Shown: positions 4,544 through 5,637 of the stretch, piece after piece
Layout: each line of letters begins with the position of its first letter
Position numbering within the stretch: the stretch's first letter is position 1
DNA from: Candidatus Solibacter sp.
Lineage (GTDB): Bacteria > Acidobacteriota > Terriglobia > Bryobacterales > Bryobacteraceae
Assembly (NCBI GenBank): GCA_017883345.1
Contig: JADGNT010000383.1
Coordinates: 1 to 5,637, forward strand
Direction of reading: 5' to 3'
Length of the DNA: 5,637 nt
Translations under genes and position numbers: made by a program
Notes under the pieces: model-generated
What the model was told of the DNA's origin: nothing
Seen by the model: only the letters and a program-made list of their open reading frames with translations
Databases searched by the model: none

Positions 4544-4636
4544 TTAACCGGTTTTCGGGGTGATGGCGGCGAAGGCGCAGCGTTGGCCCATGTCGAGGCC
4601 CGCGCGGGGATCGGTGGGGATTTGCGGTTCGTTCAT
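4544..4636 (-). CDS. Possible small protein, 30 residues, upstream of cysS
   Basis: ATG at 4634-4636 opens a 30-codon frame that starts MNEPQIPTDP and ends FAAITPKTG, closed by two consecutive TAA codons. GGAG lies five bases before the ATG (4642-4645), the best-placed ribosome site of the minus-strand starts here after the TTG one. There is no signal peptide or membrane segment; the peptide is soluble, proline-containing, with one Cys (residue 20). It lies about 70 bases upstream of the cysS start on the same strand. A single Cys codon makes a classic cysteine attenuation leader unlikely. I do not recognise a family. The ORF is short enough to be chance, but ribosome site plus tandem stop argue for translation. 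Confidence 0.4.
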   Translation of the reverse strand: MNEPQIPTDPRAGLDMGQRCAFAAITPKTG

Positions 4637-4656
4637 AGAAACTCCAGGGCCTCGAA

Positions 4657-4676
4657 ACCGGACAGATTTGTCCGGT
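4657..4676. repeat. Palindrome copy 1: CCGGACA-GATT-TGTCCGG
   Basis: Eight-base perfect arms (ACCGGACA and TGTCCGGT) surround GATT. The same arms recur 77 bp to the right with a different centre, so the arms are conserved and the spacer is free. It lies about 20 bases upstream of the start of the 30-codon ORF, where it would form a hairpin in a leftward transcript. No T-tract of useful length follows on either strand. Confidence 0.6.
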
Positions 4677-4728
4677 CCGGGGTGATACGGTTTGTTGATA
4701 CTAAGAAAGTTAAGTGGCACGGAACGCG

Positions 4729-4754
4729 AAAAAACCGGACAAACATGTCCGGTT
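4729..4754 (-). terminator. Palindrome copy 2 with T-tract: intrinsic terminator on the minus strand
   Basis: On the minus strand nine-base perfect arms AACCGGACA and TGTCCGGTT with a four-base loop are followed by a run that gives six T residues in a row (4729-4734). A GC-rich stem directly followed by T residues is the layout of a rho-independent terminator. It would stop leftward transcription before the 30-codon ORF and cysS. In the plus direction no T-tract follows. No leftward gene is seen to the right, so it may act as insulation, or the palindrome may have another role. Confidence 0.5.
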
Positions 4755-4782
4755 CGCCCTTCCAGCCCGGTGAGAGGGTTGC

Positions 4783-4826
4783 CCCCCTGATTTCATCGTA
4801 CGACCGGGATGGATGGAATTAGGGGG
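4783..4826 (+). repeat. 15-bp stem-loop with two G.U pairs
   Basis: CCCCCTGATTTCATC (4783-4797) pairs with GATGGAATTAGGGGG (4812-4826) over all 15 positions if two G.U wobbles are allowed (4793/4816 and 4789/4820). The loop has 14 bases. The wobbles are G.U only in plus-strand RNA; in the minus-strand RNA they would be A/C mismatches. No T-tract follows, so it is not a plain terminator. Confidence 0.5.
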
Positions 4827-4862
4827 TGGCGGAAGGGGTGTGGGGACGGTAAGTGTTTGGGG
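4822..4862 (+). other. G-rich run with four G4 tracts, quadruplex candidate
   Basis: Tracts of at least four G lie at 4822-4826, 4835-4838, 4842-4845 and 4859-4862, separated by loops of 8, 3 and 13 bases. The pattern could allow an intramolecular G-quadruplex on the plus strand, although the last loop is long. The first tract is also one arm of the neighbouring hairpin, so the two folds would compete. Confidence 0.35.
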
Positions 4863-4888
4863 TGGAGTAGGTTAAGGGCTGAAAAACA

Positions 4889-4971
4889 ACTGATAAAGGT
4901 TTCATCAGATTCGCGGCCGAAAGAGATGGAGGGAGGAAGAGGAGCTTGGATGCCGCGAATGTGATGAAACC
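4889..4971 (+). repeat. Direct repeat unit A, folding into a 20-bp stem-loop
   Basis: Unit A shares 64 of 79 positions (4889-4967) with unit B 103 bases downstream, with no gap. Arms 4898-4917 and 4952-4971 pair at 19 of 20 positions, the exception being G4908/G4961. The 34-base loop is purine-rich and holds five GGA triplets. A start-proximal alternative pairs CTGAT (4890-4894) with ATCAG (4904-4908), which would open the outer part of the main stem. It resembles no element that I can name. It might be a non-coding RNA, a REP-type repeat or a protein-binding site. Confidence 0.7.
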
Positions 4972-4991
4972 GTGCAGTGAACTAAACCTTG

Positions 4992-5071
4992 ACTGATAAA
5001 GGTTTCTTCAGTTTCGCGGCCGAATAGACCTGATGGAAGAAGATGAGCTTGGAGGCCGCGAAAGTGAGGAG
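4992..5071 (+). repeat. Direct repeat unit B, folding into an 18-position stem-loop
   Basis: Ten perfect pairs (TTTCGCGGCC 5012-5021 with 5054-5063) are followed by the same G/G mismatch as in unit A (5011/5064) and seven more pairs, two of them U.G (5007/5068 and 5004/5071). Relative to unit A, 5012/5063 changed from A-T to T-A and 5007/5068 from A-T to T.G, both keeping the pairing. The loop is more diverged than the stem but keeps GAGCTTGGA before the second arm. The wobbles favour plus-strand RNA. Confidence 0.7.
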
Positions 5072-5086
5072 TCGCTAATCAGCGAC
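5071..5086 (+). repeat. Perfect 6-bp hairpin GTCGCT-AATC-AGCGAC
   Basis: Six perfect pairs with a four-base loop begin at the last base of the unit B stem, so the two helices could stack. The following bases (GAATCTTCATC) do not form a T-tract long enough for a confident terminator. Confidence 0.5.
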
Positions 5087-5151
5087 GAATCTTCATCTCT
5101 GCTACTGTGATGTATTCGGAGTCACCACTGCTAAATGGAGATGCGGAGTAG

Positions 5152-5637
5152 CCCTCACCCTTCGGCGGCAAGGAGGGAAAGGACGCGCAAACGCGCTTCG
5201 CCTACAAGACGGGCGCCACCCAAGTGCTATTCCTCCAGCATGTGATCGACAGCCTGAAGCCGGGCGGCCGATGCGGGATCGTGCTCGACGAGGGCGTGCT
5301 GTTCCGGACGAATGAAAACGCATTCGTGCAGACGAAGAAGAAGTTGCTCGACGACTGCGACCTGTGGTGCATCGTGAGCCTTCCCGGCGGCGTGTTCAAC
5401 GCGGCGGGCGCCGGCGTGAAGACGAACCTTCTCTTCTTCACCAAGGGTGGCCCCACGGAGAGCATCTGGTACTACGACCTCTCCGATATCAAGGTCGGTA
5501 AGAGAACACCGTTCACGCTGGACCGGTTCGACGACTTCTTCAGCTTGCTGCCCGGCCGCGAGACAAGCGCGCGCAGTTGGACGGTCACGCGGGCCCAAAT
5601 CGACGCCCGGAACTTCGATCTGAAGGCCGTGAATCCG
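5152..5637 (+). pseudogene. hsdM: Truncated type I restriction-modification methyltransferase subunit (HsdM), C-terminal part
   Basis: The plus frame after an in-frame TAG (5149-5151) reads PSPFGGKEGKDAQ, then RFAYKTGATQVLFLQHVIDS, LKPGGRCGIVLDEGVLF, CDLWCIVSLPGGVF, GAGVKTNLLFFTKGG and SIWYYDLSDIKVGKRTPF, continuing past the right edge. This is strongly HsdM, the N6-adenine DNA methyltransferase subunit of type I systems. Homology begins inside motif IV: family NPPFGG appears as PSPFGG, so the catalytic Asn is lost. Everything before it (N-terminal helical domain, SAM-binding motif I) is missing in all three plus frames. The first usable in-frame start after the TAG is GTG at 5224, with no ribosome site. 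A 5'-truncated remnant is most likely. A contig join error in the source assembly could give the same picture. Confidence 0.75.

Follow-up and report, generated by a model that had tools for sequence, protein, structure and literature searches.

Hairpin units of a Candidatus Solibacter contig as probable solo ends of IS91-family insertion sequences

The window analyzed here, an entire contig of 5637 bases from a Candidatus Solibacter assembly (890 contigs, 79% complete), carries two adjacent hairpin units, A and B, which in all probability (about 0.8) are solo terminal hairpins of an IS91-family insertion sequence (IS) encoding a Y2 HUH transposase and a tyrosine recombinase. Such a hairpin would likely fold as single-stranded DNA and be recognized in its folded form by the transposase when rolling-circle transposition starts. 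The copies in the window probably represent transposition signals left stranded, not a novel regulatory RNA, and would be immobile unless a transposase acts in trans. What had been a candidate new noncoding RNA would thereby become a transposition signal, a warning that compensatory change in dispersed stem-loops need not signify RNA; and 79 covarying hairpins, together with complete 2.5-kb elements with both ends located, provide material on the requirements of IS91 origin ends.

The two units and their surroundings

Unit A (4889..4987, + strand) reads as the solo terminal hairpin of an IS91-type element, comprising foot, stem, loop and inner motif, and is matched over positions 1-99 at 94.6 bits by a covariance model, R1, from which it was held out. 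The inverted repeat 4898-4917/4952-4971 and the pair listing define (i) a left arm (4898..4918, +) with an outer stem at 4898-4907, a mismatch G at 4908 that belongs to a conserved G.G, and an inner stem starting at 4909, and (ii) a right arm (4952..4971, +) with the facing mismatch G at 4961. Directly inside the hairpin, the sequence letters and a comparison with the far ends of complete elements disclose a GTGAACTAAACC motif (4977..4988, +). The CTTG that directly precedes unit B (4988..4991, +) constitutes the A/B junction, according to the letters and the junction table, and unit B was probably inserted beside unit A. Unit B (4992..5091, +), also held out from R1 and scoring 57.4 bits, is a second solo terminal hairpin with two broken pairs; its left arm (5001..5021, +) contains the mismatch G at 5011, its right arm (5054..5074, +) the mismatch G at 5064 and two unpaired positions, 5072 and 5074, and the unit (4992..5091) is devoid of the GAACTAAAC motif.

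A sequence-only reading of this DNA had described the units as tandem stem-loops with pair-preserving differences, and the identity count and the pairs that it named withstand recomputation. The units share 64 of 79 ungapped positions at a spacing of 103 bases, and the pair listing contains both double changes, 4909/4960 A-T to 5012/5063 T-A and 4904/4965 A-T to 5007/5068 T.G, the single change 4901/4968 T-A to 5004/5071 T.G, and the G.G mismatch retained at 4908/4961 in unit A and 5011/5064 in unit B. Each unit folds better than every one of its 200 shuffled versions, with z -5.29 for 4889-4975 and z -4.24 for 4992-5085. The same listing reveals two uncompensated changes that had not been mentioned, 4900/4969 T-A to 5003/5072 T.T and 4898/4971 G-C to 5001/5074 G.G; since both pairs are lost, the foot of the stem of unit B is decayed.

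To the left of the units the window encodes ordinary genes, including an amidohydrolase, a DUF4440 protein, a Cys/Met PLP enzyme and a class I tRNA synthetase of the cysteinyl type. The immediate left flank (4559..4888, - strand) comprises a decayed upstream region and the start of a gene beginning MNEPQIP, and is homologous (76% over 398 positions of locus L006) to contig C79, where this gene, an open reading frame in L006, encodes 203 amino acids; a promoter-like block in the flank adjoins the hairpin of unit A. A Pfam search with the MNEPQIP gene gave no match. Upstream of its remnant, palindromes of the CCGGACA..TGTCCGG type are located at 4655-4679 and 4732-4756, with counterparts in the MNEPQIP homologues L006, L007 and L010, and are possible regulator sites or terminators. 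Past the hairpins, the C-terminal part of an N6 DNA methylase (5160-5637; profile positions 164-298 of 311) starts abruptly and runs off the end of the contig, likely a truncated hsdM-type gene. Because the window contains no Y2 or recombinase match, the units are not complete IS91 elements but solo ends only; the Y2 transposase model NF033538 likewise has no match in the window's own assembly.

A dispersed family with conserved pairing

Copies of the hairpin are dispersed as a repeat family through relatives of Candidatus Solibacter, a genus of the Bryobacterales (Acidobacteriota). With unit A as the query, BLAST finds 8 places on 7 contigs of its own genome; of 61 genomes, 4 have matches, the own genome among them, and all four belong to the window's genus. 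A pattern search of genome contigs with the left arm retrieves 22 stretches, six of which (L047, L048, L054, L056, L060, L065) were dropped by eye as chance; the 16 kept all come from metagenome-assembled genomes (MAGs) titled Candidatus Solibacter, Bryobacterales, Acidobacteriia, Acidobacteria or Terriglobia. The search of related genomes with a covariance model, which the sequence-only reading had proposed, brought further homologues: R1, built from an alignment of 12 units with A and B left out, matches 38 of 150 genomes of the taxonomic family, own included, and 29 of 76 genera. Of its 125 matches, 86 were kept after removal of opposite-strand readings, duplicate loci and a number of matches that were partial or secondary, L062 and L163 for instance; pairs were counted on the 79 distinct sequences among these 86 hairpins.

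A passage of PMC3174227 describes many short repeats in Solibacter usitatus; among the open-licence PMC papers listed by literature searches, none was recognized as describing the present family. Carriage by plasmids or phages was rejected, given that a DNA search with unit A gave 0 matches in 72,556 plasmid and 50,697 phage records. Despite the lack of a phage-record match, two of three viral-contig stretches (L066, L067) contain full units, the third (L068) being dropped by eye as chance.

The pairing of the hairpin has been kept by compensatory change. In the 12-sequence alignment 96.5% of 288 cells are paired, against a shuffle mean of 92.4%, and four pairs display double changes, against a mean of 2.1. 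Among the 79 distinct copies, 1388 of 1532 main-helix cells are Watson-Crick, 69 are G.T, 21 A.C and 54 other. For 23 of the 24 stem pairs, at least one row replaces both bases to give another Watson-Crick pair, and for 17 of these, three rows or more do so. G.T cells outnumber A.C cells, which suggests folding of the + strand; as the counts come from rows fitted to a model of this strand, and from related sequences, no probability is attached to the excess. The claim that the fold is under selection, which two copies alone could not establish as covariation, is therefore borne out by the 79. As regards what the sequence-only reading had named as counting against it, homologues exist and compensate their stem changes at the level of the family; the expectation fails in unit B itself, at the two pairs of its foot.

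According to one alternative, the hairpin is an undescribed structured RNA, a small RNA or a leader, the fold of which is selected at the RNA level. Compensatory change and a one-strand excess of G.T fit RNA as well as single-stranded DNA, and the solo copies are numerous and often lie upstream of genes. On the other hand, many solo copies are broken in the loop, the flanking genes vary between copies, and Rfam returns no match at gathering score, as had been anticipated for a family without a name; between 4500 and 5300 it lists nine sub-threshold matches at E values up to 10, the best to a snoRNA model (E 0.069). The genomic context described below, in which the hairpin terminates complete insertion sequences and keeps a set distance from Y2, weighs further against this alternative, so that the structured RNA is unsupported by both the Rfam search and the context and appears very unlikely.

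Complete elements behind the hairpin

The genome G131, assembled in three contigs, has three equal-scoring hairpins, and each marks the edge of one copy of a 2549-bp segment; the three copies are 99.96% identical to one another and code for an IS91-family Y2 transposase and a tyrosine recombinase. The transposase reaches 450.1 bits with NF033538 (cut-off 125) and matches Pfam Y2_Tnp and Zn_Tnp_IS91, and is thus a Y2 HUH transposase with the IS91 zinc-binding domain; the recombinase matches Phage_integrase and scores 190.9 bits with an integron-integrase model, under the cut-off of 265. In a second genome, G011, another hairpin, pointing the same way and sharing 98.5% identity over 133 bases, follows an element of the 2.5-kb type. 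Altogether, 17 of the 86 R1 hairpins have a Y2 match on their inner side, antisense in all 17; in 16 the nearest end of the match lies 335-444 nt from the hairpin start, and the seventeenth (L129) is only a 29-residue piece at 117 nt. The window's own type of hairpin is found with a decayed Y2 in L051, from a Candidatus Solibacter MAG, and in L046. The hairpin forms the end lying 3' of the Y2 gene, called the oriIS side in IS91/ISCR, with the recombinase gene at the opposite end, and the structured-RNA interpretation of the sequence-only reading gives way to that of a terminus of a mobile element.

At their far end, 15 of 20 complete or near-complete elements carry an inverted copy of the inner motif GTGAACTAAACC at an alignment score of at least 22, which puts the lengths of these 15 at about 2.43-2.59 kb, the other five falling below this score, in a comparison that scored only the inverted motif, without a control, and did not include L194-L200. 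The conserved left flank was rejected as a part of the element in G131, where the three near-identical copies have different left flanks. No target duplication is visible by eye at the junctions of these copies (L111-L113). L231, a paralogous and nearly empty site, is similar to L113 on one flank alone; judging from these sequences, the IS of L113 may have inserted between the GTG and the ACCC of a site resembling L231. Near the far end of one G131 copy, a tandem array of units of ~127 bp occupies L111 7756-9270.

The association extends to whole genomes. NF033538 has Y2 matches in 59 of the 150 genomes and R1 in 38, with both in 24, so that a Y2 is present in 24 of 38 genomes with hairpins versus 35 of 112 without (Fisher p 0.0009). 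In the remaining 14 of the 38, own included, hairpins occur without a Y2 match; nearly all of these assemblies are fragmentary, and gaps may hide some of their Y2 genes.

The same place in other IS91 elements is taken by hairpins that R1 does not recognize, which also argues against the structured-RNA interpretation. Twenty strong Y2 loci were hand-picked, not as a census, from the NF033538 search at places without an R1 match; R1 run on them afterwards gave one clear match (L196, 32.8 bits). In 14 of the 18 measurable loci, two being too short, the strongest stem is found 278-362 nt past the Y2 C-terminus and outscores all 17-32 control windows of the same locus; L185 and L191, from one genome, share one hairpin sequence, and L184, L194, L196 and L197 did not pass. 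Since 14 of 18 loci outside R1 show a stem in the same place, position and structure are kept where the sequence is no longer recognized, and a secondary-structure end as in the IS91 family is found on the hairpin side at 17 of the 86 R1 sites and 14 of the 18 further loci. Among six plasmid IS91 relatives, five have an annotated tyrosine recombinase directly before the transposase; the sixth (Cupriavidus) has none annotated there. In all six, a GGCTAAGCCGC-type motif follows a stem located 337-352 nt downstream of the Y2 stop; these stems are mostly short, and only one of the six is the best of its locus. The arrangement of genes and stem is general and did not originate as a novelty of this lineage.

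The position of the hairpin also bears on two alternatives that retain a mobile-element origin. In the first, the units are REP-like repeats spread by Y1 transposases of the RAYT or class 3 type. PMC6006769 describes class 3 Y1 genes and associated structures with a CnGA foot, some 600 of which occur in Solibacter usitatus, and the present hairpins are dispersed in the same lineage; the window's own genome has eight Y1 matches, seven above cut-off; and many copies carry a CTGA near the foot (ACTGATAAAGG), several nucleotides from the stem (the REP foot being GTAG or GTGG, and CnGA in class 3). However, the R1 hairpin is tied in position to Y2, and around the eight Y1 loci the best R1 score is 13.2 bits (E 0.13). 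The Y1 origin was rejected for this lack of a link at the Y1 genes of the own genome and is judged very improbable, at much the same level as the structured RNA, which leaves a small probability that the hairpins and the published class 3 structures share a sequence.

The second alternative sees in the hairpin a folded recombination site that serves the tyrosine recombinase of the element, in the manner of integron attC, instead of Y2. The recombinase score of 190.9 bits on the integron-integrase model, though below cut-off, speaks in its favor, as do the kept mid-stem mismatch and the one-strand-favoring fold, which may resemble attC. Against it, the hairpin lies on the Y2 side and the recombinase gene at the other end, and structured ends are already expected of Y2 elements according to passages of PMC13393415; this is the least probable of the readings weighed here. 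An origin end acted on by Y2 is thus the preferred interpretation.

Insertion sites, solo copies and known systems

The classification of insertion sites covers 84 distinct ones whose left flank reaches 60 nt or more, L129 being counted and L110, too short, excluded. They comprise (i) 16 with a Y2 behind the hairpin, (ii) 45 whose inner sequence extends for 700 nt or more and contains no Y2, and (iii) 23 that end sooner. In the window's own genome, five of nine left-arm loci (one mismatch at most) keep the left part only and are broken in the loop. Two further irregularities were observed: a stretch of 16-24 nt, the outer left arm, recurs in tandem just outside the hairpin, up to three extra times, in L116 (three), L115, L120, L122, L124, L010 and L171; and in L004 (1320-1756) two left halves stand face to face in a 437-base palindrome with 69% identity between the arms. 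We infer that half copies, arm repeats and the L004 palindrome are products of truncated or repeated transposition and decay, and that solo copies would arise through decay or through truncated or one-ended transposition. The 45 solo sites may reflect spread or upkeep by something besides the movement of complete elements. A MITE of fixed length was considered and not established.

The hairpin is preceded by GTG at most of the 84 sites (G 64, T 63, G 62), and Y2 would nick at the GTG/A junction beside the folded hairpin. IS91 itself targets GTTC or CTTG. The family mostly has GTG instead, although unit B is itself preceded by CTTG; the GTTC/CTTG target is no defining feature of the IS91 family as scored by NF033538.

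The left flanks display recurrent blocks. With two mismatches allowed, AAGTGATTGA-like blocks lie less than 150 nt from the hairpin at 35 of 84 sites versus 8 of 126 background windows, and AGTAGCAGG-like blocks at 30 of 84 versus 17 of 126; 23 of the 35 and 18 of the 30 are placed at -42 to -45 and at -84 to -86, respectively. For the promoter-like block of the window's left flank, the idea of a general promoter was rejected, the exact pattern TAGCANGGN{24,40}AAGTRRTTGA having 4 matches in 10 genomes. Blocks similar to the AAGTGATTGA-like and AGTAGCAGG-like ones occur on the other strand upstream of members of a dispersed, high-copy gene family, here named STGPR after its motif, whether a hairpin is present or not.

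STGPR genes encode about 220-280 amino acids with the motif STGPR..GK..S..NA..HG (L205-L234), and their matches per genome range from 59 (G062), 37 (G131), 17 (G016), 9 (G000) and 8 (G002) to none (G108). A Pfam search with two copies gave no match for one and a SEC-C motif for the other. A profile built from 14 copies of a protein search finds a gene within 800 nt to the left at 13 of 68 sites, all divergent, versus 0 of 37 controls; the left flanks with such genes are those of L050, L055, L113, L131, L133, L138, L140, L144, L150, L152, L164, L166 and L179. Copies in G131 share repeated units of ~870 bp starting near an AGTTCAC-like site ~130 nt before the ATG, and the family is possibly mobile itself. 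The right flank of L113 is 99.9% identical, over 1359 bp beyond the far end, to sequence upstream of another G131 STGPR gene. Hairpin ends are thus often found at a fixed distance upstream of STGPR genes, with most sites having no such gene; the element may seek these places or may merely survive there. If the fixed spacing reflects true targeting, it would be unusual for a rolling-circle element. A more elaborate scheme, in which an IS91-type system targets sites upstream of STGPR genes, its recombinase perhaps treats the hairpin in an attC-like manner and the stranded ends now behave as a REP-like repeat, is doubtful, albeit less so than the alternatives rejected above.

Among known systems, the attC site of integrons is a folded single-strand site near a tyrosine recombinase, a likeness to the present elements; here, by contrast, integron platform and cassette array are not seen, and the recombinase remains below the integron-integrase cut-off. 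REP/REPIN sequences, associated with Y1 RAYT, resemble the units as dispersed intergenic hairpins thought to be moved by an HUH enzyme, whereas the present unit is longer, tied to Y2 and without a link to the Y1 loci of its own genome. Helitrons also have a hairpin close to the end of a rolling-circle element; according to PMC4778049, such a hairpin controls termination in a Helitron, with truncation and read-through upon its failure. The Helitron hairpin is a terminator at the 3' end, whereas the one described here lies on the oriIS-named side.

The closest parallels are found in IS91/ISCR elements, for which passages of PMC13393415 describe an oriIS and a terIS end, both including secondary structures, with terIS situated on the side of the transposase gene that has the promoter; the hairpin corresponds to oriIS in being a structured end 3' of the Y2 gene. 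IS91-like elements lack terminal inverted repeats according to a passage of PMC3214074, with which the short inverted end motifs found here fit poorly. The IS91 elements of the pNGR234a, pBPHY02 and pRL10 type share the gene order, with the tyrosine recombinase directly before the transposase, but their stem sequence is unrelated to the R1 hairpin. Compared to IS91/ISCR ends, the family described here is distinguished by ~20 paired positions, a kept G.G mismatch and the usual GTG before the hairpin, as well as by a recombinase gene and many solo copies.
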